A DNA stretch of 64,000 bases from Sorghum bicolor (Eukaryota; Streptophyta; Magnoliopsida; Poales; Poaceae), in assembly GCF_000003195.3 (NCBI RefSeq), contig NC_012873.2, positions 42,836,061-42,900,060 on the forward strand. The letters are read 5' to 3'. A model generated the notes under the pieces. It ran no database searches. It saw only the letters and a list, made by a program, of their open reading frames with translations, and had not been told where the DNA came from. This document shows, piece by piece, positions 7,929 to 44,649 of this stretch (the first letter of the stretch is position 1; the number at the start of each line of letters is the position of its first letter). The translations under genes and the position numbers were made by a program.

Positions 7929-7930
7929 TG

Positions 7931-8698: not shown

Positions 8699-10961
8699 AG
8701 TAGTGGTTTATGATTTTTAATAACTAATTTGATCATGCAATTAACCTGAAATTTTTTGTGAGCCATTCTTATGTTAATAAGTAATTTATAAAAATATGAA
8801 ATCTGTTGTTTGACACATTTGCACCAGTAGGGTAATTTTCCCTAATTACATTAATAAACTTGTGAATTTTGTGTGGACCATGTTATTTGCCCAAATGCCA
8901 AGAAAATTTAGTGAAAGACTTTATAGAAAATTTATGTCATGCTATAATTTTTGTAGAATTTATTGAAGTACAAAAATATATGCTACTGTTGTAAGCCTAT
9001 TAAGTAATAAATAAATAAACCCTTGCTATACATGAAAAAGATAAAATGAAATAGGTTTGGTGTATCTTTGAAGTACTATGATAGCTTGCTGGTTTAGCAG
9101 TAGCTTGTAGAGGAGAATATAATAGATGGCTCATTTAGGTTACATGTTCTTGGATGATGTTGTTTACCTAGTGATAATAGTTTCTTGTTTCATCCATCAT
9201 GACTCTTCTATTTCAAAGAGGAATCATGCACTTACTCTGTAGCAAGCATATCATGATCATCTTGCCTTCACCTGCACACTACTGCATTTCGAGAATCCTG
9301 CACCTCTGCTTATTCGTGCATATGCATCATACAGGCTTGCAGGAGAACAAGGTAGATCCCGAGGAGCAGGAGGAGACCCTAGTGCAGGGACTTCCGGAAG
9401 GGCACGAGCCAGAGGAAGAACTGTAGGAGTGCCCCGACCATAGGCCTAGCACCTTCGAGAGAGGCAAGCCCTAGAGCATTCTAGGTCTCCCTCATTTTCG
9501 CTAACTTACTTTGTTATATCATGTTGGTTTGCTCTGTTAAATTAAGTTATAGGAGTTGTTTGATACCATTGATGCATCATTATTTCTTGAATTTACCACC
9601 TGTCTACCTGTCTTGTCCTAAGTAGTGTAGGCCCGAAGTCTATGCTTAGCTTGCTTAGAGCGGTAGAAGTTTGGTGGTTTCCTGTCACCTGCGAGATATA
9701 GGTGGATACCTAAAGGTTTTAGCTGTTTGATGCTATCATGGGAAGTAACCAAGTGTGGGAAAAGAAACTGAGACCGGGTAGGGTCTTATGGTGGTGTTTA
9801 ACTGTAGTGCCCCTGTGTGTGTCGATTAAGGACCATTCATTGACGACCCTCTTGTCATGTTGAACGAATGCCCCACACTTAGCTAGAAGGATAAGTCATT
9901 CCGACCACGAAGCCTGAACACTATCCGGGCCGGGAGTCGAGCCACCATGCGCTGTATTGGTGATGCTTGAGGAGAACGACGAGGGCGTGACACGCAACCT
10001 TGGTATACCTTTGATACCTCAGTCACCGAAACGGTCCTCGGGTACTGGCGGTGCCTGCTGAACCCGCTAATTGGTCCTCGATAGTATAATACGGTGACTT
10101 GTGGCTCACTTGATCAGTGAGTGTGTGGTTTGTGTGGGGAATAACTCGCCAGCTGGTCAGAAATCAATTCGAATTGCGATCGCTCCTGGGTAGTGAGCAC
10201 TTGACTTGAGCTTCGTCCTCATAGTAAGGACTATGAAACACTTTGGTTATGGTATATGATGATTTGTGAATGCTACGATATGGTACTATCATCTAGAAAC
10301 AACTATTTGCAATAGTACAGGTGCCAGTAAGTAATAATACTTAACTTGAGCTAAATAAAAGCAAGGGGTTTTAGGATTTATACCTTTAGATGGATAAAGC
10401 TTTTTATGCAAAAAGGGTTCAGCTATCCCACTATACAGCCTTCATGATCCTTGAGAGTCTTTTATTTCTGGTTTATGACGGGTAGGTCTAGCTGAGTACA
10501 TTCTCGTACTCAGGGTTCCATTCCCATGTTGTTTTGCAGATGGGCAGATGTACTTTGGGTATTGCATCAACTGCTTGTACCTAGCAATGGGTGATGACTA
10601 GACCATGGGCAATGGTCACTCTACCTTCTCTTTTGCTTTTGTGGGAATGATATGACTCTAGCATTGTAACGAACTAAGCGTGTGTGTGGTTTCAAACTGA
10701 AACGCTTCCGCTACTGTTGAACTTGGTTTGTAATAACTATGTTGAACTTCGATGTAATTTTTGAATGATGTGAACTGAATGTACTTGTGAATGGTGGCTG
10801 CTGAACTTATTACGATCTTGGCTGTGTGCACGTAACAAGGTTTGAAAACCCCTCGAGGTTTCACAGACTACCAGAATTATATGGGCTTAAGCCTGATGGT
10901 TTGACTGTGCAAATGGTCACTATTATGCTTAATCTCTTATAATTTGGATGATTCTATTACA
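8699..10961 (+). repeat. 5' LTR of the Tekay element, right part
   Basis: It aligns with 42393-44649 of the 3' LTR. The first ~1.7 kb of this LTR is displaced to the left beyond the window by the Sirevirus/Tat insertions. It ends ATTCTATTACA, a mutated version of the TGTTACA end of the 3' copy. A short frame around 9199-9426 is shared with 42884-43168 only because both are LTR copies; I see no domain in it. Confidence 0.9.
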
Positions 10962-10963
10962 GT

Positions 10964-10975
10964 TGGCATCAGAGC
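10964..10975 (+). other. Primer binding site (initiator tRNA-Met type)
   Basis: TGGCATCAGAGC lies two bases after the 5' LTR end and matches the usual TGGTATCAGAGC primer site for initiator tRNA-Met with one substitution. Confidence 0.85.
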
Positions 10976-11780
10976 AAGGTTTAGTGGATTACTATTCATA
11001 AGCACATTCTAATGCAAATTAAACGGTTTAACTAAACTAACTCACCATTGTTAATGATCAAGGTGTTAAAATGAGTTTTTGGAAAACTATAAAGTGTGCC
11101 AGTGGTCATATCCTTTATGCTCAGTTAAGGACTCTAAGGTGGCTAGTTAAGTACTAACTTGGGGGTTGTGCATCATGTTTCTATTTTTGTCGCTCATACG
11201 ACGTGCAATAGTATGAGTGCCATTCACTTGAGTAGTAATGAATGGATCATTTTTCGTCTACACGTCGGTAAGCGAGAGTTGTGAGAGCATGATCGGATAC
11301 ACTGCCGGTCTAGGGAAGTGCTTTAGGGTGTTGTGCCATGCACACATATTATGTGTGCCTGGAAACAGTGCCGCATGGTGGGTAATTCCGTCCTGAGAGG
11401 CGATGTCATCACTAGGGCGATGATGTAGATAGTAGCGTGCCACATACAAGTGTGGGGTACCTGTATGGGCGATGCATAGTTTCAAATTCCTGTTCTGCAT
11501 GTTTCATACTGTGGGTGGGCTGAAATGAGTTTTCTGCAGGTACACTAACCACGTTTTCGCATAGAGCGTTAGTTACGTTATGAGAGAACGTTGTATGCCA
11601 CCGTATATACTGATTAGTATTAACTCTTGTTTCTAAGTTTGTGAGATCGTAAGTTTGGTGCATGCATCAAGTTCATTTCGTCTCATTATTTAGTTCCTCC
11701 CCTTATATAAATCTGTCCCATTTTAATAAAAATGACAAAGATAATCGTCAGTCTTACCCAAGGTATTCTATTTTCAACAG
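10976..11780 (+). other. Tekay 5' leader, no gene recognised
   Basis: About 800 bp of untranslated leader between the primer site and the first ORF. Open frames on either strand look random. I see no domain, TATA box or repeat in it. Confidence 0.6.
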
Positions 11781-12820
11781 ATGGCTCGCACTAGGCTCAC
11801 CGCTCGCAAGTCTACTAGAGGGCGGGTTCCTCACGATCAGTTGGCACCTAGGGACTCGTGTCGTAAGAGCGAGTTCCTGGGAGAGTTTGGTATGCCTACC
11901 CTGCTTTGGAGGGTGCTCAGTTCGATGGGGTATCCTAAAGGAAGGGAACCTCGCTACTATTAGAGCCGAGAGCAGCTGGGTGACGGGACCCTAGTTGGGG
12001 TCGAGGTAGTGATACCTACTAGTGGTAGTGACCCCACCTAGGGTGGTTGGGTGTATGAGTCCCAAGGCAATACTCCTTTCTAGGGTGTCAGTAGGGCTGC
12101 TTTTGCAGTTCTGAGGAACATCATGGAGAGGTTTCCATAGGAGTTAGCTCACGCCTTCATTGGGGTGTTTCCCCAGGGTGACCCCTACACCTCGGCGTGG
12201 GATCAGTCCAAGGGGAGTGCTTTAGAGAGAAGTGCGGATGAGGATCAGCACAGTGACAACATAGCTATGAGTGCCATTTTGCTATGATGAAGACCTATGG
12301 GGGCCTAGAGTGCTGTTTGGGGCGTTTAACTAGGTCTCTACTGACAGTTCAGGATGAGAAGCGCTAGCTGCAGCATGAGTTTGACAGTGAGGTTGAGAGG
12401 TTGCAGGTAGAGCTTGCCCATGTGACTAGAGAGGGACCAGACAGTTCAGCAGAACAACATACTAAGCCAGGATATGCTGGCCGTGAGAGAGCAGAGAGAC
12501 AGGGTGACCACAACCTACAGAACTGTGAGCGCATGCTAGTTCATGTGCTTGGATAGAGGAATGGAGCCTGGCACGAGGAGGATACTCTTAGGGCCCGACA
12601 GTTAGAGCTTGAGCAACAGTTGGCCAATGCTGAGGAGTATAATGAGAACCTACATGAGGAGATCCAATAGTTGCATAACCAGCTCCATCCCCATCACCTT
12701 CCTGGAGCAGCAGAGGTAGATTTTGAGGAAGAGATGGATGAGGATCCAGAGATGGAGGTGACAACAAGTGAAGACAAGGACGACGAGGGTTCTGACATGG
12801 ATAGCGACCATAGAGAGTAG
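11781..12820 (+). pseudogene. Decayed ORF upstream of gag with histone H3-like N-terminus, coiled coil and acidic tail
   Basis: The reading frame starts MARTRLTARKSTRGR and continues PHDQLAPR. That is identical to the histone H3 tail at 15 of the first 24 residues counting Met, including the ARKST around Lys9. A middle region follows (EFGMPTLLWRVLSSMGYPKG), then a leucine/glutamate-rich probable coiled coil (LEQQLANAEEYNENLHEEI near 12610-12665), then a strongly acidic end (EEEMDEDPEM...DEGSDMDSD). At least five in-frame TAG/TGA stops and one frameshift break it. It sits between the leader and gag, so it is a separate first ORF of the element. Function is unknown to me; chromatin mimicry is inference. 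Confidence 0.7.
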
Positions 12821-12985
12821 ACGCTAGTGTTCTAAGTGCTAGTCCTTCTTTTGTGGTTGTTTCTGCATTGCATGTACTCTTAATCGGGTTGAGACTTGGT
12901 TGTTTGTGAGACTTGATGTGGTTGAGTTGTGTTGACTTTTTGAAAGTCTAGTGTATGTATGTTGGCAACTTTGGATGTATGCGAA

Positions 12986-13275
12986 GGAAAAAGTCTACTT
13001 AACCCCCTGACCTTTGGACCAGTGTCTAAGTTTCACCCTGAACTACAAAACCGTCTATATTACACATTAAACTTTGATGAATGGTGCAAAACACCCCCCG
13101 GAGTGGTTTAGCAAGGCTGTTTTGCCTATCTGGCAGCCAGCGTGGAGGTGGATGGCCACGTTAGGCTTGGCTGCCCTGTTAAATGGGATTAGAAGATGGG
13201 GCCCGCACGTCAGGGCATTCCTTCTCATAGAAGCCTCCCCCTCCCCTATCTCTTCCCCTGCCCTGCCCACGGCTC
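12986..13275 (+). repeat. Left terminal inverted repeat of the MULE
   Basis: About 290 bp, near-perfect inverted match to 25167-25456. Long termini of this kind normally hold transposase sites and the promoters of the element's genes. Confidence 0.95.
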
Positions 13276-13298
13276 TTTCTTCTTTCTTTTCGACACAC

Positions 13299-14530
13299 TA
13301 TTGACGGTCCTTAATGCTCATATTTAACCATCAATTAATCATAGAAAAGGATCCAAATGCAACTAACACCTAGACTTAGGGTTTTATCTGACAGAATTCC
13401 ACGAGTTTTGGTGTTTGTCTATTTCTGCAGGGGGTTATCAGGAAATATGGAGGAAAGGCCCACACGTCGGGTTTACATAGAGATATTAACGTGCCGCGCA
13501 ATTTTCTATCATCTAGAAGACTCCAGAAGCCACGGGACCGAAGCGGAAGCCGAGGGGCCTCAGGGACAGGGCGCCCGCCCTAGTCCTGAGGGCGCCCGCC
13601 CTCCCCCCTGGACCAATCAGGGTGAAGTTCTGGGATCATGCTCCACCGACCTAATACTTCAAGGAAAACCACACGATCAATGTCGGTTTGATCCGACGGC
13701 CCAGATTCACTTAAAGGGACTATAAAACCAGACCCCCCTGGCCCCTGGAGATCATACCTCTTCTACAGAATCAAAGCTAGGGTTTCAATTCTTCATCCAA
13801 GTAGAGAGGATCCCTCTAGTTCTTCTAGTTCTAGTTCCTCTAGTTCTAGTTCTAGTTAGTTCTAGTTGTAATCTAGAAAATAGGGAGAGAGAAGAGGAGA
13901 GCGGAGGAGGAGCCGGATCTGTCGGATCTTCCTCAACATTATACTTTTGCAGCATCTGGTTCGTTCTTCATCGTTCTCCAGGTTCTTCAATTAATAACTC
14001 CTGAGTTCTCTAATTAATTTTATTTACATTCAAGTTATTTATTGGATTCCTGCTTGCATCAAGTGCTCTAGTCTTTATAACGCTAGAGTAGTAATTAATA
14101 GATTAGACGTGGTGTTTAGTCTTGCGATTACCTGGAATTGCACCCAATCCTACGGATTGTTGTGGTAGCCCTAGGGTAGTGACAGCCCTAACGGTCGACG
14201 TATTCCACCACGTTCGGATCGGTGTTTGTAGGACCGTAGTCAGACCTTCCTAGCCCCCTTCTCATCTCTTTCTGTGGTTAGTGCTCTGATGTCCCGATAT
14301 AGATAATCTTGAAGTAATTCTTGATTCTTAGATCAACTAGAGAACTCTCAGGAAACTTCCTCTCTTCCCACCAAAAATAATTATATAGTTATCCTTGGGC
14401 GATCTTGGATCTTAATTAGTACACTCACGTTCTCTGTGGAAAATCGATACTCTGGAATACTCCCGGGTGAAGGCTACATCGGTATCCGTGCGCTTGCGGA
14501 TTTTTCTGTTTGCGTTTAAAATACCCAACA
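13299..14530 (+). repeat. 5' LTR of the 13299 element
   Basis: 1232 bp. The start is TATTGAC rather than TGTTGAC, a G-to-A change at 13300; the end is ACCCAACA. U3 holds the paired 14-mer AGGGCGCCCGCCCT at 13568-13581 and 13589-13602. A TATA box (TATAAAACC) is at 13721, followed by CAGACCCC. A run of CTAGTT-type hexamers lies near 13813-13868. Confidence 0.95.
13568..13729 (+). promoter_or_regulatory. Athila-type U3 module: paired GC 14-mers plus TATA
   Basis: Two copies of AGGGCGCCCGCCCT start 21 bp apart (13568 and 13589), and TATA starts 132 bp after the second. The same spacing is seen in the LTRs at 27814, 35840 (inverted orientation), 37296 and 55313; the copy at 19762/19783 is 131 bp from TATA after a one-base deletion. 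Confidence 0.85.
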
Positions 14531-14537
14531 AGCTTTC

Positions 14538-14555
14538 TGGCGCCGTTGCCGGGGA
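14538..14555 (+). other. Primer binding site, tRNA-Asp
   Basis: TGGCGCCGTTGCCGGGGA, complementary to the 3' end of plant tRNA-Asp including CCA, seven bases after the LTR. This primer is typical of Athila/Tat elements. Confidence 0.9.
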
Positions 14556-16290
14556 ACGGTAGCTGTGCTAGTTTCGAACCAAGTCGTCCGTGTATCCTTT
14601 TTTCTTTTCCTTTTTTACCACACTCACCTTATCATTTTCACCACACCACATGGATTTTACTCTAAGCATTAATGAGCATGGAATTTATTTCATAGCCACT
14701 TCATTTACTCCATGCTCATATGCAACATCTTACGAATCCATTGGTTTTCCAACATCACCATATTCGAGATCTCCAACCCCCTCATCCTGTCTATTTACAA
14801 AAACTTTAAAAGGGCGGTTGTCGATGCATATGTCTATAATAAATTTTGCAGATTTCGTTGAGTTGATCTTGATATAGGTTGGTGTTGGAGGGGAAACCAC
14901 TTCAGCAACATAAATTGATGGTTTCCCAAGGACAAGCTTAGTGTCCTAAAACAAGCACTGATCAGATCGTAACATGAGCTTTTAATTATTTGCAACACTA
15001 CCTTGTGTATTGAGCATATAAGGATAATTGTAAAAATATTCCTTCGGGTATTCTTGTCACTAACCTTTCCAGGATTGGAGCAAGAAGATCAGATGAATGA
15101 CAAGCACAAGGTATGTACAACCAATCATCATACAACATTGAATTAAATTCATCCAAACTTGAATTTTGCAAAATTCAAGCTTGGGGGAGTACTTTATATA
15201 AAAACATCATTTGCCATGTTGCTATGTTGGTTGTCCCTACCTTTGAGACATGCTCAATTTGTTAAATAGTAATCACACTACTTCATCTCCACTTGAGTAG
15301 ATCTCTATAAAAGCCATCACGCTACCTTTGTTTATCCAAGTAAGTGTTAGTTTGGAAGTACTGTACATACTTCTATTGGTTTTTAAATTATGCATGGTGC
15401 TTAGGTTAAACAGCCTTCCTTAATCTAATTAGACATGGAGTCTAGTTTGGTTATTGAACTAAAAACTGCTTGTGTAGACATTGGTATATTTTGTTGGACT
15501 AACCCCTGCAGGAAAACTTTCAATATCGACCTGGGAAGTCCTGTGATAAACTCACATTGGAGACAAAGAGAGACACACATAAAGTTTAACAATTTACACA
15601 AGGAAGGCGTAGCTCACAAGAGATGATCCATGGAGGGTGCCACAAACACGATGCACAACCGCTAAGAGAGGAAAGCTTCCACAAGGTGATACTATACCAT
15701 CACTCTTCAAGTAAGGTAACATCTTAAGGTACTTGACTATCACTTCTATAAGCTTCTCCTTGGTTCTGGCGTTCACATGAATAAAAGAGACAAACATGTA
15801 TGATTTGCAACTCTAGATTAACCAACCAAATCGATTCAACATGTTTAATCCTTCCACCTTTGTGATCCCACACTCCTAATCATATGAACTAAAATGTTGC
15901 ACATTCAATCTCTGGAAGATATAAACAAAACATAAGTATAGATAGATTATCTTTCCATTAGGTTGAGTGATCTGATCTGACGAATGTTTTAAATGCTACA
16001 CTCATGATCTTATTATCCATCAACTGTGTCTTGCTCACTATGCTTAAGGATAGAGAAGAGCAAATACACTTTTGGTTCTGTTGGTGTTTTCCACCAACAG
16101 GGCCCATGCACTTGATCTCTGCCTTGTCTCTACGAGCAGGTACACTTCGAGCAAAATATGAAGGACTTTTATAACTCCCAGACTCCACCAAGTGAAGAAC
16201 TTAGATCTACGAGCACAAACACACTGGAGAGACTGGACACTCAGGCAATCACTGCCCTGAGATGCTTGAGGACGTAACTACTAGAGTAAC
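14556..16290 (+). other. Leader/decayed gag region without a recognisable gene
   Basis: About 1.7 kb of AT-rich sequence where gag would be expected. I cannot recognise a gag domain; short frames such as 14590-14877 and 15435-15626 show no family features. Either gag was lost or it has decayed beyond recognition by eye. Confidence 0.5.
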
Positions 16291-16299
16291 CCCGTTGTG

Positions 16300-17398
16300 G
16301 AAGTAATTACTGACCTTCTGCCGGTCAAGAGAGACAATCCAGGACGCCCCGTCATCCCGATCTCCATCGGCATGGTGGACTTCCTAGAAGCACTCTACAA
16401 CTTTGGCTCGAGCGTCAACATTATGCCTAGGGGAATATTGAAGAACCTCTACGTCCGAGGAGGCCATTCCTGAACACCTCGGGAGCTATCATCTACGCTA
16501 GTGCTGCCAAGATCAGTTTCTACATCAAGGGAAGGAAGGAGATGTTTTCCTTCAAGAACAAGACTATACAAATCTCAGAGCAATCCCGACATGAACCAAG
16601 GAAGAGGACCAACAGGAGGAATAGGAACAAGCAAATGTGTATCGAGTCAGCTAAGATGGTCACTGCAGTTCAAGGAGGACAAGATCATCTATTTAAGTCA
16701 CCGTTCCTAACCAAAAAGGACGACCCAGGCATGCCAAGCATCCAGTGCTCCATTAATGGATACAACATCCAGAAGATGCTTTGTGACACCGGGTCAGGCG
16801 TCAACATAATGGCCGCAGTCACCTATCAACTCCTGTTCGGAACCATGCCACTAAAACCGTCATACATTTAGCTCCAGATGATTTTAAGGTTATTGACATG
16901 GGAGAAGACGAGTATGATCCACCCATCATCCTTGGAAGACCGTTCCTCAGCACTGTTAAAGCAATCATCTACATTGAAACTAGAGAAGTCCACATGCACT
17001 TCACCTCTGAGAAGGTATGCCGCTGTTTTACTGACCCTAACTATATAGTTGAAGACTCTAAGCAGGTCAGGACAAGAAGAAGACGACGCAACCGCAACCA
17101 GAGGAGGCAAATCATCAAGGACGGATGGGCAGACTATGAAGGAGAAGTTGTAAGGTCTGAAGACATACAGCTTGAACAGAACTGTCCTGAGGAGACCGTA
17201 GCACCGAGTCAGGTGTGTAGAGAGAAGATAGTTATACATGAAGAGCAGGCGCTGCCGGAACCACCGACTACGCCATCCAGTGAATCCCAGGATGACTGTG
17301 AAAACAGAGAGTCCCGTTCGGAGGACTTAAAAACACTGAATGCCTTGCCAAGAGGTAAACTTGGTAGTTATCTTTTGCTTTTCAATTATTTAAAATAG
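16300..17398 (+). pseudogene. Tandem retropepsin region (two protease domains), broken
   Basis: First domain (about 16330-16540): RDNPGRPVIPISIG...ALYNFGSSVNIMPRGIL, where the catalytic Asp position is Asn. After a frameshift a basic linker (SFKNKTIQI..., 16551 onward) leads to a second domain (about 16690-17070): KKDDPGMPSIQCSING, then CDTGSGVNIMAAVTY with Asp kept. A stop and a small deletion follow, then PPIILGRPFLSTVKAIIYI. The C-terminus is basic then acidic (RTRRRRRNRNQRR). The same two-domain order is in the separate minus-strand element at 50767-51830, so duplication predates both. No reverse transcriptase follows. Confidence 0.75.
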
Positions 17399-19492
17399 TT
17401 TGCTTAGTTAATCAGGTTCATATCATCTTAAAAAGAAAATAAAAATGTTAAAAATAGTAAGCCCCATGTGAGTATGCTCATGGCATAAAACCCATAAGTA
17501 CATTCACTGTGGTGGCATAAAAATAAAATAAATATATCCTTGTCCTATAAAAATAAAATTATAAAAATAAATTTATGATCCTACTAAACAGAGTAATATT
17601 TATTGAGGAGGCTCAACATGATAAAGGCTAGATATTTATGCTAACACTTAACTAGTTCCACAAAGCTTTGTTGTCTATTTGAGCTCCACAGAATTCAAGG
17701 ATCAAAGAAGACTAGCAGACGGAGGACATCCTAATCGCTGTCAGGGTGCTGTTGACATTCAAATACACCTCCACCACTTGCTAGCTACAACAGAAGAAAT
17801 TACGTCAAAATCCAGCTTGGGGAAGAGCACCCCCATTTATCCAGCTAAGTATTCTACTCATGTTTATACTTTACTCTAATAATAAAAAGATGCATAATCA
17901 TATAAACCCAAATAAAGATTTTGTGCTTATATATATCTTTGCTTAGTTTGCTAAATAAATAAATAAATAAAGTTTGCTATGAACCCTCATGATAAGCTCT
18001 CACATGGAAATGATGAATAGTTGCTCTGCCATGACTAGTTCTCAAAATTGAAATCTCTCTCAAGTTTAGGCCTAACTGTTATTAATTAAGATTTGTTCTA
18101 AACCTAAACTTGTGGGAAGAGTACTTGATCTGAAGTCTAAGTCGTTAACGGATATGATATGGGAAGGTTGAGCTGCTGTTATCTATTCCTAGAGATGCTA
18201 GAATTCTGGAGAATTTTATCTTTGAAAATCTTTAAAATGTTGCATGATGAGTTCCTGTATGATGAGAGTTTTAATTCCTACAACAGCCATATATACATGC
18301 TTGTTAGACTATGAACCACACATTTACTTTTACTGCTTATGAGCATTGAGTGTGGTCAAGCTGTGTAGACCCTTAGGAGCTTGTCATGTGGTTAAATCAA
18401 GATTCACTTGCACGTTCAATCACATATGCTGCTTCTACTCCGGAAGTACGCATCCACATATATCCATCCATTTCCATCTCCAGAACCACCCAAAAATATT
18501 CTACTCCTAATCCGGGAGAGAATAGCCAAAAACATTTCTGTTTTCCCCTTTTGAAATAAATGCTCAAGTTATCTTGGTTACTACCACTTGCTATATTATT
18601 TCAGGAGATGAGTGCTCTAAAAAAAAGAAGAAGAAAAAAAAGAGAGAAAAAAATAATAAAATAATAATAAATACGAGGAAATAAAAAGGGGTAAGTGCCC
18701 GGAACCTCGAAAGAAAAGAAAAAGTGAGACGAGAGGTAAAAATGGACAAGTGTCCGACAGTAGAATTAGGGGTACAAGATACCCACGTGAGAGAAAAAGA
18801 AAATATAGAGCATCTCATTTTCCTCAAAAAGTTTCAAAAGAGCAAGAAAGGTATGTACCCCCTCAAAAGAGCAAAAGTAGAATTAGACTTTCACCATTGT
18901 TATCACCATCATTACCATACACCATTTATTCGCCACACATGCACATCTTGATTTGACTTATTGACTTGTTCTTCTGGATCCATGGTTTGACTATGCAATA
19001 AATGTCTTGTAAGTATGTATTAGCTGTCTCCCACCTATGAGCTCCAGATATCAAAACCTTATTAGAGTAGGGTGAGAGAGAAGGCAATGTCACTATACCA
19101 AAAATACCACATACTTTGAGAGAAGGCATATACCATTACTGCCTTGGTAAGGATCCAGAAATACCACAAAAGAGAGACTAGAGAGAGTCATACAAGGAAT
19201 CTCTGAGTTTTATTTGAAAATCTGCAAAAACTCCAGAGCTATAGTTAATCGAAGAATAAGAGACATGGCGCTTGACTAGACCGTTCTATCTTTTAACTAC
19301 TCAAGACAGAAGTGACGGTTGCAAGCCCCATGGTGAAAGGTAAATGAGTAAGTTTTAAGTCTTAACAGTTTACTCTAACCAGAGATGAGATCTAGTTTAA
19401 ACGCATGTGTATCTTTAAGTTATGAAACCACTGCAGAAACTCTTGAGTTCATCTTTGCTCAGGGACGAGCAAAGGTTAAGCTTGGGGGAGCT
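17399..19492 (+). other. Long 3' noncoding region with a motif shared with the Athila element
   Basis: About 2.1 kb with no gene. It is A-rich near 18618-18670. At 18741-18775 it shares a stretch containing the hairpin GGACAAGTGTCC (18744-18755) and the following GTAGAATTAGGGGTAC with 29540-29563 of the minus-strand Athila element. It ends in the polypurine tract AAGCTTGGGGGAGCT just before the LTR. Confidence 0.7.
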
Positions 19493-20723
19493 TGTTGACG
19501 GTCCTTAATGCTCATATTTAACCATCAATTAATCATAGAAAAGGATCCAAATGCAACTAACACCTAGACTTAGGGTTTTATCTGACAGAATTCCACGAGT
19601 TTTGGTGTTTGTCTATTTCTGCAGGGGGTTATCAGGAAATATGGAGGAAAGGCCCACACGTCGGGTTTACATAGAGATATTAACGTGCCGCGCAATTTTC
19701 TATCATCTAGAAGACTCCAGAAGCCACGGGACCGAAGCGGAAGCCGAGGGGCCTCAGGGACAGGGCGCCCGCCCTAGTCCTGAGGGCGCCCGCCCTCCCC
19801 CTGGACCAATCAGGGTGAAGTTCGGGGATCATGCTCCACCGACCTAATACTTCAAGGAAAACCACACGATCAATGTCGGTTTGATCCGACGGCCCAGATT
19901 CACTTGAAGGGACTATAAAACCAGACCCCCCTGGCCCCTGGAGATCATACCTCTTCTACAGAATCAAAGCTAGGGTTTCAATTCTTCATCCAAGTAGAGA
20001 GGATCCCTCTAGTTCTTCTAGTTCTAGTTCCTCTAGTTCTAGTTCTAGTTAGTTCTAGTTGTAATCTAGAAAATAGCGAGAGAGAAGAGGAGAGCGGAGG
20101 AGGAGCCGGATCTGTCGGATCTTCCTCAACATTATACTTTTGCAGCATCAGGTTCGTTCTTCATCGTTCTCCAGGTTCTTCAATTAATAACTCCTGAGTT
20201 CTCTAATTACTTTTATTTACATTCAAGTTATTTATTGGATTCCCGCTTGCATCAAGTGCTCTAGTCTTTATAACGCTAGAGTAGTAATTAATAGATTAGA
20301 CGTGGTGTTTAGTCTTGCGATTACCTGGAATTGCACCCAATCCTACGGATTGTTGTGGTAGCCCTAGGGTAGTGACAGCCCTAACGGTCGACTTATTCCA
20401 CCAAGTTCGGATCGGTGTTTGTAGGACCGTAGTCAGACCTTCCTAGCCCCCTTCTCATCTCTTTCTGTGGTTAGTGCTCTAATGTCCCGATATAGATAAT
20501 CTTGAAGTAATTCTTGATTCTTAGATCAACTAGAGAACTCTCAGGAAACTTCCTCTCTTCCCACCAAAAATAATTACATAGTTATCCTTGGGCGATCTTG
20601 GATCTTAATTAGTACACTCACGTTCTCTGTGGAAAATCGATACTCTGGAATACTCCCGGGTGAAGGCTACATCGGTATCCGTGCGCTTGCGGATTTTTCT
20701 GTTTGCGTTTAAAATACCCAACA
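19493..20723 (+). repeat. 3' LTR of the 13299 element
   Basis: 1231 bp, TGTTGACGG to CCCAACA, about 99 percent like the 5' copy. It has the paired 14-mers at 19762 and 19783 and TATA at 19914. Confidence 0.95.
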
Positions 20724-20728
20724 CACAC

Positions 20729-21128
20729 AGTGACGGGGAGGGCGATGAACGCCGGCGGGTTCTAGTGATCGGCTTCGTCAACGAATTCTAGGTGCGTGTT
20801 CGCTGCTCACCCTCCTTCTTCGTTGCAGTGTTCAGATTAGCGATTTGGTCTGCATTTTGGGGTATTCCCATTTTCTGTGTTTTCTTGGGTGTCTTGGTAA
20901 TGGCATACTAGCCCTAGGTTGGATTCGAATCATTGATGTAATGGCAATAGAGGTGTTTTTAGGTTGGTTTAGGGCTCAATGTGTGTTCTTTTCTTTACGT
21001 GATTGTTGTGGTTCATTGTGTGTTAGGTTAGGGTTTTGGTGTGGTTCTTGATTCTTGATTTTGGGCTACTGCTCACTGTTGTGATTTTACTTCATGCGTA
21101 ATCGTGTACTATGTTATTGGTTATCAGG
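20729..21128 (+). other. 5' untranslated region of the MULE transposase gene
   Basis: Sequence between the nested element and the transposase start. Its left neighbour is MULE sequence at 13276-13298, so the retrotransposon separates TIR/promoter from the gene by 7.4 kb. A GC-rich start is followed by a T-rich stretch with possible splice sites (TTGCAG at 20823). No domain. Confidence 0.55.
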
Positions 21129-24053
21129 ATGGCCGGTGAGGACAAGTTGTCTATACGATTTCATTTTGGTGGTTCCTTTGTCAATCTCAATGGTTATGTG
21201 ACCTATGTTGGTGGAGATTTAGGAGTGTCTGAGATTGATGTGGACAAGTTGTCATATTTTGAGATCAAGGGCCATCTTGCCGATCATTTCCCAACTGACA
21301 ACATTCTATGACTGTACTGGTTGAAGCCAGGCATGGAAATGAGGAATGGATTGGTCTTGTTGGTAGATGATGCTTCCTGTCAAGTCCTTCTTGAGCAGCA
21401 CACTCCTCGTAAATGGGTTGACATGTATACAGAGGACGTGGGTATGGAGCTTACTGCTAATGATCAACAAATTTGGGCAGGGGATGATGAGGCTGCTGAT
21501 GATGAGGTAGAAGATGATGTTATGGGAGCAGTTGATGAAGCAACACAATATGTCAGTGATGATGAAGTTGTTCATGAGTTTCAAGATCAGGAGTACAAAG
21601 CAATTTGTGAAGGAGCATATGACAAAGGAAAAAACGTAATGCCTGAATATGATCATAGCTCTAAAGATGAGTCAGATGAAGATTACGTGCTGCCTGCAGA
21701 TGAGGACAGCTCTACTGATGATGAAGAAGCAATTGAGATGAAGAAGTTTGCATATGAGGTTAAAATGAAGGCAAAAGGAAAGAAGATTGGCATTCATGGT
21801 TCTCAACTCAATCTGATAAGGGTTGAAGATTTGGTTGATGAGGTTCCAAACCTGGATGAACCTGGTAGTCCTTATCTAGACTCAAGTGAGGAGTAGTCCT
21901 ATGAAGATAACAGTGAAGGTGAGACTATTAGGTGGAAGAGCCTAGAGAATAGGTATGACAGTAAGGCTCCAGTTCCTATTTTCTCTCTAGGTATGTGCTT
22001 CAGGGATAGTAGACAGTTCAAAAAGGCACTAATAAAGTATGGATTGAAGACCCACAGGCATCTCAGATTTGATAAGGATGAAAAGGTAAAGGTGAGGGCA
22101 ATGTGTACATGGCCAGGCTGCAATTGGAAGATATATGGTTCCATTACCACCAAGTCAGAATGGTTCAAAGTGGCCACTTTTCATGATGTTCACACTTGTG
22201 CACCAAGGAGGGATAATGACCTTGTCACTTCTACACTGATTGCTAAACACTACTACCAGGACATAAAGGACAACCCCACATGGAAGGTGGCTCACATTCA
22301 AAACAGAGTTCAAAAGGACTTTCTAGCTAATATGTCGAGGTCAAAGGTCAAAAGAGCTAAGTCAATAGTGCTTAATAAAGCATTAGATGTGATAAGGGGA
22401 GAGTACACTAGAAAGTTTGGATCCAGAAGAGCAAGACAGGAAAGTTTTTGAAAGATTCTATGTATGTTTTGATGCATGCAAAAAGGGTTTCTTGGCTGGA
22501 TGTAGGAAGGTCATAGGATTGGATGGATGTTGGTTCAAAGGTGCCAATAATGGTAACTTGCTGTGTGCAATAGGAAGAGATGCAAATAATCAAATGTATC
22601 CAATTGCATGGGCAGCAGTTCCAATAGAAAGCTATGACACTTGGTACTGGTTTATTAGCTTGCTGCAGAAAGATCTCAATATCAGCAATTGTGGTCAAGA
22701 CTGGGTGTTCATCTCAGATCAGCAGAAGGGCTTGTTGAAGGCTGTGAAAGAGCTAGTGCCAAATGCTGAGCATAGAATGTGTGAAAGACACATATATGCC
22801 AACTGGAGGAAGAAGTATACTGACAAAAAGCTGCAGAAGAAATGGTGGAGGTGTGCAAAGGCCTCCTGTAGAACTTTGTTCAATTTGTACAGGGCCTACC
22901 TAGCAAAAGACACTCCTGAGGGAGCACAAGACATGATGTCAACTGATCCACAACATTGGAGTAGGGCTTTCTTCAGAATTGGCTCCAATTGTGACTCAGT
23001 GGATAACAACATGTGTGAAAGTTTCAATAACAGCATCATGGATGCTAGATTTTTCCCAGTGATATCCATGAATGAAGCCATAAGGAAGAAGGTCATGATC
23101 AGAATTCAAGAGAACAAATCAAGGGTTGAAAAATGGCCAGGAACTATTTGTCCAAATGTGTTTAGAAAGCTGAAGTTGAACATTGAGAGATCTAGGTGTT
23201 GTTTGGTTTTGTGGAATGGAGCTGATGGTTTTGAGGTACAGGAGAAGGAAGATAGAAAGTATGTAGTGAACATGGTAAAGGCCACTTGCAGTTGTGGTTA
23301 TTGGCAGTTGTCAGGGTTACCTTGCTGCCATGCCATAAGTTGCATTTACAAAGCTTCAAAGAAACTAGATGACTACATTGCTACTTGCTACAGAATAGAA
23401 GCCTACAAGAAGACATATGCACATGTCCTGCAACCAATTGAAGGCCCAGATAATTGGCCAACAGCAAATATGCCAAGACCAGAACCCCCAGCCTTTGTGA
23501 AGAAGCCTGGTAGGCCAAAGACAGAGAGAAGAAGGGAGCAAGGTGAAGAACCGAAGGGGACAAAGCTCAGCAGGGTTGGCATCGATGAGGTGTAGGATAT
23601 GTGGCACAACAGGGCATAATTCAAGAAGGTTTCCACAGAATCTATAAGCTGGGAACAAAGGAAATGCTCACATCAAAAGAGCAAGGACCGAGAAGAGGAA
23701 AAATGTGGAGGCTGGGACTGATGCTACAGCAAGCAGAAATACAAAGAAACAAAAGGTATTGTAATACTTGAAGCATTTACAGTTTCAAGGCAGCCATAAC
23801 ACTTGTTGTGCTCTTACAGGTACCATCAAGCCAAGGTGCTACATCAAGCCAAGGTGCTCCATCCAGCCAAGGTGCTCCATCCAGCCAAGGTGCTCCATCC
23901 AACCATGGTGCTCGACCAAGACATCAAGCTGCTCCAAGGCAAGCTTTTGGTGCTCCAAGACAACCTTTTTCTGCACCAAGACAAGCTAGTGCATCTAAAA
24001 GGGGAAGGGGAAGAGGGAGGCTGGGATGGCTTATGTTTGGTGACAACAACTAG
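21129..24053 (+). pseudogene. mudrA: mudrA-type MULE transposase, broken
   Basis: It starts MAGEDKLSIRFHFGG and continues with an acidic region (to 21893) and a MuDR N-terminal DNA-binding region (CFRDSRQFKKALIKYGL, about 21990-22400). The catalytic core is at 22417-23595: VIGLDGCWFKG and VFISDQQKGLL carry the first two acidic residues. A SWIM zinc finger follows (CSCGYWQLSGLPCCH, near 23287). A separate frame at 23585-23643 encodes a knuckle-like CRICGTTGHNSRRF with the third Cys replaced. After a likely GT-AG intron (23756-23819) come five 6-residue repeats (SSQGAP) and the end RGRGRLGWLMFGDNN. Defects: TGA at 21309, TAG at 21894, a deletion/frameshift near 22420 and another near 23575. Inactive by itself. 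Confidence 0.9.
23823..23915 (+). repeat. Five 18-bp tandem repeats in the transposase C-terminus
   Basis: Units of the form CCATCCAGCCAAGGTGCT encode SSQGA(T/P), with the last unit diverged. They keep the reading frame of the final exon. Confidence 0.85.
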
Positions 24054-24108
24054 TAGACAACTGAATGCCACCTATGATAGTAATTAAGTACTGTAACTCT
24101 TGTGGACA

Positions 24109-24202
24109 GAAATGCCACTACTTTGGCCATGAAAATGCCACTCTTTTGTGCATGAAACTGGCACTCTTTTGGCCATACAAATGGCAATGTTCTGGGGCAG
24201 GA
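24109..24202 (+). repeat. Imperfect ~23-bp tandem repeats, four units
   Basis: Units resemble AATGCCACTCTTTTGGCCATGA in the space between the convergent MULE genes. Each contains the palindromic TGGCCA or a variant. The stretch 24054-24497 is otherwise untranslated with no gene seen. Confidence 0.6.
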
Positions 24203-24497
24203 ATAGACAAGTAGTTTAATAGATAAGGAAAGCTTTTGGGCATAGTAGCTATGTAAGTAGATCTTGTTGTCAAACTCTAGATCAATCAATCTTGTTTTCA
24301 ACTTGCCTTGCCAAATGTTGCTGTCCAAAATCTATCAATTTTTGTTTTTTTACAATAAAAAATCTGTGAATTGTATTCACTCAATCAAAACCAATGCATC
24401 ACAATTCGATGTGCCAAACTGATTTCAATGACCAGAACACATTTCATTTCATTCAAACAGAGTTCATTGCACCAAATTTGCATTACAATACCTAATA

Positions 24498-25077
24498 CTA
24501 CTTCAGGATCATGCTGATGACACCAACCACAACAAACACAGTAACAATCACACAGCAGACAACTCCAACTTGACCTAGGACTATAAGCTTCTTCAGCTTT
24601 CCATCTAAACCAGCAATCCCACTCTTCAGTGCCTCCACATCATGTTCTTCTCCCTGCAATCCTCCAAGTTCATCATTATTCACAACAAGATGGTGTTCAT
24701 GGCCTCTCTCTCTGGCAATCAGTCCCTTTGCAACCAGCAAACGCTCATACTTGTCTTGAAACAAGTAAAAAGGGCATGTTCCTGGCACCTGCACTTGCCA
24801 ATTGTTGCCCAAATCAGGCACAGTACCGGATCAAAGGCAAGAATAGCAACCCTATAGCAAAAAGATGGCATTGAGGACTTACATCTCTTTCATGGAACTG
24901 ACATTTGAAGAAAACGGCCCCAAGTACCTTGGATCCGGGACCACAAACAAGCTCCAAGACCTCCGAACCACATTTGGGGCACGGCAAAAGCGGGAGCCCA
25001 GTCTTCTCCCCACGGTCCGATGCAAGGCGCTCGTAAGCAGAGCTCCCAACGCCGCTATGGCCGGACGACGCACGCAT
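24498..25077 (-). CDS. MULE accessory gene: GRF zinc finger plus C-terminal membrane segment, two exons
   Basis: Exon 1 (25077-24883) encodes MRASSGHSGVGSSAYERL...LPLLPCPKCGSEVLELV...AVFFKCQFHERD. The donor GTAAGT and acceptor TGCAG join it in phase to exon 2 (24788-24498), VPGTCPFYLFQDKYERLL. Together they give a complete GRF-type zinc ligand set (CPKC, FFKC, TCPFY). Exon 2 continues with a charged helical stretch and ends in a ~22-residue hydrophobic segment (VCCVIVTVFVVVGVISMIL), a likely tail anchor. The predicted protein is 161 aa with no stop. It converges on the transposase gene, the position of mudrB in maize MuDR, but it is not mudrB-like in sequence that I can tell. Small GRF/TM proteins are common in grass genomes. 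Function is unknown. Confidence 0.8.
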
Positions 25078-25166
25078 GATGACTTGGGGAGAGCGCTGTG
25101 AGAGCTTGAGGAAGCCAACCTCCACCGCGTACCAGCCACCACCGCCGCGCCGCACCCACCGACGCT

Positions 25167-25456
25167 GAGCCGCGGGCAGGGCAGGGGAAGAGACAGGGGA
25201 GGGGGAGGCTTCTATGAGAAGGAATGCCCTGACGTGCAGGCCCCATCTTCTAATCCCATTCAGTAGGGCAGCCAAGCCTAACGTGGCCATCCACCTCCAC
25301 GCTGGCTGCCAGATAGGCAAAACAGCCTTGCCAAACCACTCCGGGGGGTGTTTTGCACCATTCATCAAAGTTTAATGTGTAATATAGACGGTTTTGTAGT
25401 TCAGGGTGAAACTTAGACACTGTTCCAAAGGTCAGGGGGTTAAGTAGACTTTTTCC
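25167..25456 (-). repeat. Right terminal inverted repeat of the MULE
   Basis: Inverted copy of 12986-13275 with roughly 3 percent differences by eye. It lies upstream of the minus-strand GRF gene and probably supplies its promoter. Confidence 0.95.
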
Positions 25457-25466
25457 TGTATGCGAA

Positions 25467-26880
25467 CCACATTGGCGATATTATTAAGTACTTCTGTTAG
25501 TGATGTTGTGTGTGGATAATGAATTATTGTGCCTCTATTTATTGTGTGGATTTATTCTCATCAGTAAATTCAGCATGGCATGATTTTACATGTACCTACC
25601 GGTTGGTGACAACTCCTAACGATTGTGTATCATTTACGTGTGCATATTGTGGAAACACGGGGTAGGGGTAACCACAACCAGGATGCTAGGGAAGGTCCCT
25701 CCGGAGGCGGAGCTCACTGGAATGAGGATAGAGCACCACCGCCACCACCACCACCACCTCCCCCTCTGTACACTACAGAGGTGTTCTTCACGCATTTTTT
25801 GGGGAGTCAGTGAAACATGGAACAAATGCAACAAAATATGGAGGCTACCCTACACAATATCGCTGACAACACCCGCCGTGGGGCTAACTCGGGCGGCCAC
25901 GAAGTGAATTGATACAGTTCTTTCAAGGACTTCATGGACACCAAGCCACTGGTTTTTACGGAGGCCGTAGAACCACTTGAGGCCGATGAGTGGATCAACA
26001 CTATGGAGGAGAAATTGTCTCGTCCGTATGACTGAAGAGCTGAAGGCAGAGTATGCGGCGCATCAACTGGAGGGGCCCGCTGGGATTTGGTGGTCTCACC
26101 ATCGCACCACCTACCCCGAGGGAACCCCGATCACCTAGAACCGCTTAACCACCGCTTTCCAGGGAAACTATATTCCCCTGGGCTTGGTGGAGATGAACAT
26201 TTGGGGATTCATGAAGCTATCTCGGGGGACTAAGACTGTGAAGGAATATTTGCATGTTTTCAACAACCTTGCTCGTTACACTCCAGAGTTTGTGAACACT
26301 AATGCTAATAAGATTGCTAGTTTCTAGAGGGGCATGTGCCCTAAGATGCTAAAGACTATGGGTACGGGCACCCGAGCTACTTTCAATGTCTACATCAGTG
26401 ACTGTCTGACCCAAGAGAACAATAACAACAACTACAGTGCATCCAAGTCATGCAAGAGGGCTTTTGAGGCCGGTTTGTCTCAGTCCAGGGCACCAGTGGT
26501 AGGGCGTCAGCTGTATCGTCTTCCTACCCCAAGTGCCAGATTCCGACCTCTGTAGAGAAGGAACACCGGACATCCAATTCAGCAGAAGCTGTACAAGGTA
26601 GCCGTGGCTCTAGCAAAGCCAAGGGCCAACCAAGCCGCAACACCTACTGCCAACACCATGACCAAGGGCCCATGCTACAACTGCCACAAGATGGGCACTT
26701 TGCCAAGGAATGTCCCTACCCCAAGAAGCAGCAGACAACCTACCCAGCCCATGTGCATCATACCTCGATTAAGGAAATTCTGGAAGGAGAACCAGTAACA
26801 ACTGGTATGTTCCCTATCAACCAACATTCCACAGTTGTTTTTTCGATTCCGGATCATCGCATTCATTCATGAGTTAAGCA
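25467..26880 (+). pseudogene. Tekay gag with zinc knuckle, broken
   Basis: The N-terminus (GRGNHNQDAREGP, about 25656) is followed by a CCA/CCG repeat encoding polyproline (25729-25767). Then come QQNMEATLHNIADNTRRGAN and the capsid start SSFKDFMDTKPLVFTEAVEP (25913 onward), typical of Tekay/Del gag. Near 26672-26720 a CCHC zinc knuckle (CYNCHKMG, then AKECP) is split by a one-base deletion. Stops at several places are TAG. About 150 bp before gag (25467-25620) is noncoding spacer that joins 12821-12985 when the MULE is removed. Confidence 0.85.
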
Positions 26881-27813
26881 TTTGCACAAAAGCATGGTCG
26901 AGCAGTTATGGAATTGAATTATGGCTACCACATCAGCTCAGCAAGGGTAGATGTGTTAATGAGTAAAGTGGTCCGAGGGGCAACCCTGGATATAAGTAAC
27001 CGTGTGTTTCGAGTAAATCTGGTGGTCATGCCTGGTCTAGTCTTGGATGTCATCCTAGGCATGAACTGGATGAAGGAGTGGGATGTAGTTATAGATGCAG
27101 GGAAGGGGATGTTGTCTCTTAAGGAGCCTTAGGGCAGTGGTTCTTTCCAAGTACCTTTACCTCATTGGTTTGACTTTGCTAGCATCTCTTGTGCTAGGCA
27201 AGTGGTTTATTTAACCCAAAATCTTGTAGTTTGTGAGTTTCCTAATATTTTTCCAGAAGAGCAACCGGGACTTCCCCTGGATAGAGTAGTTGAGTTTGCC
27301 ATCGAACTGGTACTAGGTACAGCGCCAATTTCTAGGAGACCATACCAGATGCCGCCAAATGAGCTCGCTGAATTGAAAACCCAACTGAAGGAATTGCTAG
27401 ACAAGGGTTTCATTCGGCCATGTTCATCCGAATGGGGGTGTCCGGCACTGTTCGTGAATAAAAAGGATAAATCTTTACACATGTGTGTGGACTATCATCC
27501 ACTCAATGCCATGACGATTAAGAATAAATATCCTTTACCTCGCTTTGACATCCTATTTGATCAGTTGTCAAAGGCAAGGGTGTTCTCCAAAATAGATCTG
27601 AGGCCAGGGTATCACCAAATAAAGGTCTGACCGCAAGATGTACCAAAGACTGCCTTTTCTACCAGATACAGGTTGTATGAGTATCTTGTCATGTCCTTCA
27701 TATTGACAAATGCTCCTGCATACTTTACATATCTGATGAATTTTGTTTTTATGCCCGAGTTGGACAAGTTTGTAGTGGTGTTCATTGATGACATTGTAGT
27801 TTATTCAGAGGAT
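26800..27813 (+). pseudogene. Tekay protease and reverse transcriptase, N-terminal part
   Basis: The protease active site FDSGSSHSF is at about 26843 after a frameshift; LDVILGMNWM follows near 27046. Reverse transcriptase begins about 27250 with [43 protein letters not shown] and [14 protein letters not shown] (27130) and TGA (27628) interrupt it. The frame stops at 27813 where the Athila element entered; the continuation is at 37069. Confidence 0.9.
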
Positions 27814-37063: not shown

Positions 37064-37068
37064 AGGAT

Positions 37069-37295: not shown

Positions 37296-38571
37296 TGTTG
37301 ACGGTCCTTAATGCTCACATTTAACCTTCAACTAATCATGGAAAAGGATCCAAATGCAACCAACACCCAGACTTAGGGTTTTATCTGACAGAATTCCACG
37401 AGTTTTGGTGTTTGTCTATTTCTGTAGGGGGTTATCATGAAATATGGAAGAAAGGCCCACACATCAGGATTACATAGAGATATTAATGTGCCGCGCAATT
37501 TTCTACCATCTAGAAGACTCCAGAAGCGACGGGAAGGAAGCGGAGGCCGAACGGGGCCAGGCACTGGGCGCCCGCCCAGTTGACCTGGGCGCCCGCCCCC
37601 TCCTAGAGTCCAAACAGGACTCTCTTTCGGGATCAATCTCCACCGACCTAAAGGATCAAGGATAACCGTTCAATCAATGTCGGTTTGATCCAACGGCCCA
37701 TATTCACTTGAAGGGACTATAAAACCAGACCCCCTGGCCCCAGGAGATCATACCTCTTCTACAGAATCAAAGTTAGGGTTTCAATTCTTCATCCAAGTAG
37801 AGAGGGTCCCTCTAGTTCTACCTCTAGTTCATCTAGTTCTAGTTCTAGTTCTAGTTCATCTAGTTCTAGTTCTAGTTCCTCTAGTTCTAGTTCTAGTTAG
37901 TTCTAGTTGTAATCTAGAAAATAGGGAGAGAGAAGAGGAGAGCGGAGGAGGAGCCGGATCTGTCGGATCTTCCTCAACATTGTACTTTTGCAGCAACTGG
38001 TTCGTTCTTCATCGTTCTCCAGGTTCTTGAATTCATAATTCCTGAGTTCTTTAATTACTTTATTTACATTCAAGTTATTTATTGGATTCCTGCTTGCATC
38101 AAGTGCTCTAATCTTTGCAACATTAGAGTAGTAATTAATAGATTAGACGTGGTGTTTAGTCTTGCAATTACCTGGAATTGCACCCAATCCTGCGGATTGT
38201 TGTGGTAGCCTTAGGGTAGTGACAGCCCTAACGGTCGACGTATTCCACCTCGTTCGGATCGGTGTTTGTAGGACCGTAGTCAGACCTTCCTAGCGCCCTT
38301 CTCATCTCTTTCTGTGGTTAGTGCTCTGATGTCCCGATATAAATAATCTTTGAAGTAATTCTTGATTCTTAGATCAATTAGAGAACTCTTAGGAAACTTC
38401 CTCTCTTCCCACCAAAAATAATTATATAGTTATCCTTGGGCGATCTTGGATCTTAATTAGTACACTCACGTTCTCTGTGGAAAATTGATACTCTGGAATA
38501 CTCCCGGGTGAAAGCTACATCGGTATCCGTGCGATTGTGGATTTTTCTGTTTGCGTTTAAAATACCCAACA
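37296..38571 (+). mobile_element. Solo LTR of an Athila-type element
   Basis: 1276 bp, TGTTGACGG to CCCAACA, with target duplication GCCGA (37291-37295 and 38572-38576) and no internal region. It arose by LTR-LTR recombination. It is closely related to the 13299 LTR but the CTAGTT-type hexamer run (about 37809-37911) is roughly twice as long. 14-mers TGGGCGCCCGCCC(A/C) are at 37565 and 37586; TATA at 37718 is 132 bp after the second. Confidence 0.95.
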
Positions 38572-38576
38572 GCCGA

Positions 38577-43600: not shown

Positions 43601-44649
43601 ACACTATCCGGAACGGGAGTCGAGCCGCCATGCGTTGTATTGGTGATGGTTGAGGAGAACGACGAGAGCACGGCGTGCCACCTTGGTATACCTTAGATAC
43701 CTCGGTCGCTGAAACCGACATCGGGTACTGGTGGTGCCTGCTGAACCCGCGAATTGGTCATAGATAGTGTAATACGGTGACCTATAGCTCACTTGATTAG
43801 TGAGTGTAGTTTGTGTGGGGAATAACTCGCCAGCGGGTCAGAAATCGATTCGAATCGCCATCTCTCCTGGATAGTGAGCACTTGACTTGAGCTTCGTCCT
43901 CGTAGTAAGGACTATGAAGCACTTTAGTTATGGTATATGATGATTTGTGAATGCTACGGTATGGTACTATCATCTGGAAACAACTGTTTGCAATAGTACA
44001 GGTGCAAACCTAGATAGTACGTAATAATACTTAACTTGAGATAAATAAAAGAAACGGGTTTTAGGATATATACCTTTAGATGGATAAAGCTTTTTATGCA
44101 AAAAGGGTTCAGCTATCCCACTATACAGCCTTCATGATCCTTGAGAGTCTTTTATTTCTAGTTTATGATGGGTAAGTCTAGCTGAGTACATTCTTGTACT
44201 CAGGGTTCCATTCCCATATTGTTTGCAGATGAGCAGATGTACTTTGGGTGTTGCATCAACTGCTTGTACCCAGCAATGGGTGATGACTAGACCAAGGGCA
44301 ATGGTCACTCTACCTTCTCTTTTGCTTTTGTGGAAATGATATAACTCTGGCACTGTAACGAACTAAGCGTGCATGTGGTTTCAAACTGAAACACTTTTGC
44401 TACTATTGAACTTGGTTTGTAATAACTATATTGAACTCCGATGTAATTTCTGAATAATGTGAACTGAATGTACTTGTGAATGGTGGCTGCCGAAATTATT
44501 ACGATCTTGGCTATGTGCACAGAACAAGGTTTGAAATCCCTTGAGGTTTCACGGACTACTAGAATTATATGGGCTTAAACCTGATGGTTTGACTGTGCAA
44601 ATGGTCAAAATTATGCTTAATCTCTTATAATTTGGACGGTTCTGTTACA
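40665..44649 (+). repeat. 3' LTR of the Tekay element, complete
   Basis: 3985 bp with perfect inverted ends TGTAACA/TGTTACA. A GC-rich, CpG-rich block (about 41155-42010) lies inside AT-rich sequence and carries long but featureless open frames on both strands, as expected from GC content; it may hold the LTR transcription start or a captured gene fragment. From 42393 it matches the 5' LTR remnant. Confidence 0.93.

Follow-up and report, generated by a model that had tools for sequence, protein, structure and literature searches.

An additional open reading frame, called ORF0 or 5'aORF, is known to lie between the 5' LTR and gag-pol of the Tekay-type grass elements Retrosat2, RIRE3, RIRE8, FRetro3, ZMsat2, and Sorsat2 (PMC3485330, PMC11728184). 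Hydrolase, acyltransferase, or transporter functions have been inferred for ORF0 of rice, maize, and sorghum elements in a paper that treats both where ORF0 comes from and what it does as unknown (PMC3485330), and the maize and sorghum 5'aORF proteins were reported to show DRBM likeness (TM 0.35 to 0.37), a long C-terminal helix, and predicted nuclear localization, together with the idea that they are silencing suppressors (PMC11728184). The word "histone" occurs 0 times in the main texts of these two papers, the available part of a review of extra ORFs holds no H3 tail (PMC7264820), and no mention of an ORF0 H3 tail, or of H3-peptide or histone mimicry in connection with retrotransposons, was found in the open-access PMC literature. 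ORF0 and its DRBM likeness are already published, and the H3 tail of ORF0 is, by our open-access PMC search, new here. The locus described below is a putative Tekay-type ORF0, which it resembles in lying between the 5' LTR/PBS and gag-pol, in a Ty3/gypsy element with a chromodomain, the chromodomain and gag being read here by eye or motif, and in the DRBM-like structure and long C-terminal helix modelled for its relatives.

Parasite proteins that carry a copy of the H3 tail and engage host chromatin factors are known from viruses, such as influenza NS1 (ARSK), SARS-CoV-2 ORF8 (ARKS), and HDV S-HDAg, and for ORF0 such engagement is predicted; the viral motifs quoted in the source have 4 to 5 residues (PMC10208167), whereas the ORF0 copy is about 23 residues long and opens a protein of a plant retroelement. 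Histone H3 itself is matched by ORF0 over tail positions 1 to 23, whereas no histone fold was found after the tail in the proteins scanned. A non-histone protein with an H3-like start, PAF15, is used in the upkeep of DNA methylation. This PCNA-associated factor is a substrate of UHRF1 (PMC12474915), but while PAF15 is ubiquitinated, the ORF0 tail has no Lys at positions 14, 18, and 23 in nearly all sequences that we aligned. The VANC proteins of Arabidopsis VANDAL elements are likewise encoded by transposable elements and counter silencing, which for ORF0 is a proposal; unlike ORF0, each binds particular motifs in the element that encodes it, and the part of the source drawn on here describes no histone-like tail for them (PMC10398659).

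Within the window, a 64,000-nucleotide stretch of Sorghum bicolor DNA, ORF0 starts at the ATG at 11781 on the forward strand, where frame 1 gives MARTRLTARKSTRGRVPHDQLAPR / MARTRLTARKSTRGRVPHDQLAPRDSCRKSEF, in a longer reading MARTRLTARKSTRGRVPHDQLAPRDSCRKSEFLGEFGMPTLLWRVLSS... The H3-like N-terminal tail takes up 24 codons (11781..11852, +), with the Lys9 codon at 11808-11810 (+) when the initiator Met is counted as 0, and is identical to H3 at 15 of 24 positions, the H3 letters agreeing with the PDB alignments. When the tail was shuffled 200,000 times, no shuffle came up to the 14 matches observed over the 23 positions 2 to 24 (shuffle maximum 11, mean 2.4). With the first 60 residues as query against all PDB chains, phmmer returned 130 distinct sequences within E<=10, the top match having an E of 4.5e-4, and the best 60 of these 130 were all H3, H3 variants, H3/CENP-A chimeras, or Cse4. 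The claim of the sequence-only reading that this N-terminus copies the H3 tail is therefore upheld by the count, the shuffles, the PDB matches, and, as set out below, the relatives.

In the window, the ATG at 11781 is the first in its frame after the preceding stop. Directly before the ORF0 ATG, at 11764-11780, a pyrimidine-rich stretch followed by CAG (TATTCTATTTTCAACAG|ATGG) resembles a 3' splice site, and a Gln before the tail Met is also found in relatives from other lineages (FQQ-M, MVQ-M). Among the 25 tailed relatives introduced below, 5 gene calls open their reading ahead of the tail Met (P0019, P0024, P0034, P0036, and P0120); judging from these sequences, a spliced leader could take out upstream in-frame ATGs of ORF0.

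What had been described as an open reading frame from 11781 to 12820 is not open, since frame 1 has 15 in-frame stops, beginning with codon 61, and the protein-like reading crosses over from frame 1 into frame 3 near 12278 and runs on to the stop at 12818-12820; with these stops and the frame change, the ORF0 of the window is a dead copy. After the tail, a variable linker, recognized by its identity between lineages (11853..11870, +, limits approximate), leads to a predicted dsRBD-like core of residues about 31 to 122 (11871..12146, +), which lies in frame 1 with stops at codons 61, 87, 101, and 120 and whose fold is taken from relatives. The coiled coil and acidic tail with which the protein had been said to end are both present, although in frame 3 and not in frame 1: the coiled-coil part, with stops, spans 12278..12715 (+), its helices being modelled in the relative P0039 (residues 161-226 and 234-296), and the acidic C-terminal tail spans 12716..12817 (+). 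The last 40 residues of six ORF0 relatives hold 12 to 18 D+E, and 0 K+R in all six. A Pfam scan of the window ORF0 gave no known domain, and where whole relatives matched coiled-coil families in Pfam (MAD, APG6_N, ATG16, and others), the matches stayed below the curated cut-offs and were set aside as coiled-coil noise. One ORF0 fragment, P0051, carries a precomputed Pfam domain, PF27921.1, in its record, a family that our own Pfam scan did not return. No other ORF0 copy was found in the window by blastn of 9000-13000, which returned the LTR repeat only, and when the first 17 relatives were compared with the window by tblastn, the one match beyond ORF0 covered 14 residues, at 7929-7970, and involved the odd end of P0003.

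Relatives, all from jgi and ena contigs, were found by searches of 5.8 billion proteins that were seeded with residues 1 to 165, with the tail, and with a profile and gave 17, 27, and 1230 matches (best 120 of the 1230 used), or 126 proteins in all. The core landmark is missing from 91 of the 126 (truncated, with internal starts, or the window itself, P0087), 5 have fewer than 9 residues before it, and 30 reach at least 9 residues upstream. An H3-like tail is present in 25 of those 30, found by the first (2; P0013 and P0014), the tail-seeded (18), and the profile search (5); two others (P0092 and P0102) start differently, with MAAPAGCENFL or MATPVGCENFL, and three begin within the linker. One selection required Lys at position 9, and the landmark selection, without that demand, gave the same 25 proteins, all with Lys9. 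Identity to H3 is 15 to 20 of 24 in 25 of 26 rows (25 relatives plus the window) and 13 in P0032, where a deletion shifts the register. The best tails, those of P0027 and P0077, match H3 at 20 of 24 positions, the best reading MARTKQTARKSTGGRAPRRQLAPR; P0077 found H3 in the PDB at E 1.4e-6, and the best 60 of its 133 matches were all of H3 type. The only full-length tailed relative, P0039 (326 aa), has one of the least H3-like tails (MARRRLTAHKST, 15/24), and the other tailed relatives are fragments of 100 to 197 aa, several with frameshifts or deletions. The relatives' DNA was not found in viral contigs, bacterial or archaeal genomes, or plasmids, and no Pfam histone match after the tail was seen among the proteins scanned, the core having another predicted fold. 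Residues 1 to 30 of P0077 matched PF15715, the histone-like domain of PAF15, at a nonsignificant E of 0.64, below the cut-off.

Residue by residue, the tail is kept selectively, with counts taken over the 26 rows, P0032 being off by one after position 12 and misaligned at 13 to 23. Lys9 is present in every row, and A1, R2, and T3 in 25 each. In contrast, Lys is found at position 14 in a single row (P0021; Arg in 22) and at neither position 18 (His in 18 rows, Arg in 5) nor position 23 (Arg in 22). The Arg at the Lys4 place, to which attention had been drawn, is mostly a feature of the window's own lineage (Arg4-Leu5), as Lys4 stands in 18 of the 26 rows (Arg in 7, Trp in 1) and Lys4-Gln5 is mostly kept in two other lineages. 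Among 12 sequences from five lineages, two of which are single sequences, identity between lineages was 65 to 82% in the tail, 23 to 56% in the linker, and 49 to 69% in the core; in 9 of 10 lineage pairs, identity was higher in the tail than over the core as a whole, and conservation of the first core helix (65 to 86% identity) was similar to that of the tail. Over a seeded sample of 300 ungapped pairs, identity was 0.78 for the tail versus 0.28 for the linker. Relatives lacking the H3-like start or its conservation had been named beforehand as the sign of a chance resemblance, and at the protein level we find the opposite. Since relatives reach 20 of 24 identical positions, Lys9 is invariant, and conservation is far higher in the tail than in the linker, the mimicry appears to be real, and we are nearly certain that the tail is a true, conserved mimic of H3. 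Plant retroelements would thereby join viruses as carriers of H3 mimicry, and the ORF0 tails would form a natural record of the H3 residues that a parasite keeps and those that it discards.

In a tree of 45 cores, its root arbitrary, the two branches with support within the main clade (96/88 and 98/91) each contain tailed members, and a tailless lineage stands apart (100/100) with one tailed protein, P0034, inside it; all 500 shuffles of the tail label on this tree, in which just 2 rows are tailless, came out as low. As P0034 combines a head like that of the tailed P0024 with a body like that of the tailless P0102, it is probably a recombinant or a chimeric contig, and these sequences suggest that either the tail behaves as a swappable module or the P0034 contig is chimeric. 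Tailless P0102 and tailed P0024 also share a nearly identical upstream leader (MALSHQ-YMLMVQM). We infer that an H3 start was probably captured once, in the ancestor of the main clade, and has been under selection since, with loss of the acetylatable lysines.

The core behind the tail resembles a dsRBD in its predicted structure. The P0039 model has helix 32-48, strands 58-66, 69-78, and 90-96, and helix 99-117, that is, alpha-beta-beta-beta-alpha, and both predicted models (P0039 and P0031) fold the core like a dsRBD, with the long helices in P0039 only, P0031 being a fragment. dsRBD chains, by title, make up most of the best 50 structure matches of both models, with Foldseek E values not below 0.001 and ties among folds. 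At the sequence level, dsrm (PF00035) matched 1 of 16 cores, at E 0.31, and a core profile found no dsRBD in the PDB at E<=10. In contrast to the dsRBDs of plant DRB and DCL proteins (DRB7.2, DRB4, and DCL4 dsRBD2; 13 to 18% identity), the ORF0 core is without the usual RNA-contact lysines and is joined to an H3-like tail. The motifs KKxAK and GPxH, which we take to be the canonical dsRNA contact residues of the dsRBD, were found by hand mapping in 0 of 16 cores each. Since these residues are missing, the published idea of a dsRNA-binding silencing suppressor (PMC11728184) is not favored.

The conserved H3 tail with its Lys9 kept is a direct, testable lead on ORF0 function, namely, on which H3K9 writer or reader is targeted. 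Our leading interpretation, to which we assign a probability of roughly 0.5, is that ORF0 would counter heterochromatic silencing as an H3 decoy that can be methylated at Lys9 but cannot be acetylated. The tail would have been captured from a host H3 gene, and removal of the initiator Met would yield a free Ala1-Arg2-Thr3 end and A-R-Lys9-S, as in H3. H3K9 methyltransferases of the KYP/SUVH type could then bind the ORF0 tail in place of nucleosomes, and the tail, once methylated, could hold Lys9-methyl readers (CMT3/ZMET2 type and others) away from nucleosomes. CMT3 grips two H3K9me tails, and the coiled coil of ORF0 may present two tails, which would suit readers of this kind. With neither acetylation nor ubiquitination at positions 14, 18, and 23, the tail would stay a repressive-type ligand and would not become a substrate that switches on CG maintenance, as the loss of K14, K18, and K23 would leave a ligand that is not acetylatable there and that differs from the doubly ubiquitinated, MET1-activating H3. 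Doubly ubiquitinated H3 activates MET1 about 2-fold in vitro, and the same paper cites a lack of binding between the PHD finger of VIM1 and canonical histones, which weakens a route through VIM proteins (PMC12474915). The dsRBD-like core, in turn, may dock on Dicer/DRB-type proteins of the DCL4-DRB4 kind and not on dsRNA, and the net effect would be a weaker RNA-to-chromatin silencing of the element. More tentatively, and as a possibility that we consider less probable than not on sequence and models, this group of grass retrotransposons may carry a suppressor that works on two fronts, with a captured H3 tail, free of acetylatable and ubiquitinable lysines but keeping Lys9, that jams the loop between H3K9 methylation and CHG methylation and a core that docks on DCL/DRB proteins, united in one coiled-coil protein that would counter both arms of RNA-directed heterochromatin.

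The main rival to the decoy, which we consider unlikely but worth weighing, is that the tail serves as a chromatin tether, so that ORF0, its methylated Lys9 bound by heterochromatin readers, would bring particles or the integration complex to heterochromatin, where landing is safe, and would act by recruitment rather than inhibition. The invariant Lys9 and the predicted coiled coil suit a tether, but we are aware of nothing that connects ORF0 with particles or integrase, which counts against it. Plant group II chromodomains are reported to be without the cage (PMC3350952), so that another targeting device would be useful, yet Retrosat2 and its homologs are reported to be dispersed and not concentrated in particular regions (PMC3485330). 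It is rather improbable that the tail is a nuclear-import or nucleic-acid-binding device, that is, an H3 import signal copied as a basic stretch that cannot be acetylated, in which Lys-to-Arg changes keep the charge. Such a role would account for the Arg at positions 14 and 23 and would agree with the nuclear prediction for 5'aORF proteins (PMC11728184), but charge alone leaves the conserved Ala1, Arg2, Thr3, Thr6, Ser10, Thr11, and Gly13, and Lys9 as Lys, unexplained, and position 18 is mostly His.

Quite unlikely, in our estimate, is a passive relic, an H3 gene fragment captured once and kept by descent without a job. The tail does look captured, tailless relatives exist, and P0021 keeps Lys14 and Thr22 as if older states persisted, but mere descent is hard to reconcile with a tail so much better conserved than the adjoining linker in lineages whose cores share only 49 to 69% identity. 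We give similarly little credence to the earlier suggestion of a self-tether, in which the chromodomain of the element's own integrase would bind the ORF0 tail. Although tail and chromodomain occur in one element, group II chromodomains are without Y24 and usually without Y48 (PMC3350952), and this loss of the cage makes the self-tether unlikely; the window chromodomain itself, in a hand alignment to HP1, reads E and R at the first and third cage places and keeps only the Trp. Chance, lastly, might be invoked for a tail that is short and basic, but it is ruled out for practical purposes by the failure of every shuffle to reach the tail's score, by relatives nearer to H3 than the window copy, and by PDB matches of H3 type only among the best 60 for both P0077 and the window.

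The element that hosts ORF0 is, by its sequence, a Tekay-like, chromovirus-type LTR element, in which an LTR ending at 10961 and a PBS at 10963 are followed by ORF0 at 11781 and then by reverse transcriptase, RNase H, integrase, and a chromodomain-like end. Its 5' LTR (8702..10961, +; the extent alignable with the 3' LTR, the left end not being found) and 3' LTR (42387..44649, +; the part alignable with the 5' LTR) are 92.1% identical (K2P 0.077), which at a rate of 1.3e-8 presumably corresponds to an age of about 3 My. The primer binding site TTGGCATCAGAGCAAGG (10963..10979, +), assigned from its letters only, is taken by us to be of the initiator tRNA-Met type. ORF0 had been said to precede gag, and the order of the element fits this, although a MULE DNA transposon now lies between them and gag is read by eye only. 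The MULE (12986..25456, +; 12.5 kb) sits directly behind ORF0, is flanked by a 10-bp TSD (TGTATGCGAA, 12976-12985 and 25457-25466), has ends 97% alike over 291 bases, and contains transposase ORFs (21993-23595) as well as a nested LTR element with nearly identical LTRs at about 13301-14530 and 19495-20723. Together with the MULE, further LTR elements split the host element, and a third copy of this nested LTR family (79 to 97% alike), solo-LTR-like, lies at 37298-38571 inside the host element's pol.

Behind the MULE follow gag remnants and a protease-like stretch (25467..27129, +), with a CCHC-like part at 26556-26795, which has no Pfam match, and a protease-like part at 26878-27129, both read by eye. 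The first part of the reverse transcriptase (27133..27627, +; RVT_1, E 9.6e-6, below the curated cut-off) is interrupted by a nested LTR element and resumes at 37045-37308 (+), and the RNase H part (38512..38832, +; RT_RNaseH_2, E 9.1e-13) is followed by the integrase core (39481..39930, +; rve, E 9.7e-6, below the curated cut-off) and by the integrase C-terminal SH3-type domain with a type II chromodomain-like end (40203..40562, +; SH3_Tf2-1, E 4.7e-21, the chromodomain by motif). The chromodomain in which the integrase was said to end can indeed be read by motif at about 40440-40562, but up to the in-frame stop this stretch matched no Pfam family and, in the PDB, only the Clr4 chromodomain at E 1.2.

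Elsewhere in the window, a gypsy pol at 653-3886 includes a second RNase H (RVT_3), and downstream of it lie antisense ORFs (5645-7151, -), one of which matches the plant mobile domain (PF10536, E 8.8e-16). From their sequence, these ORFs look like the extra ORF that Tat-type elements carry in antisense.
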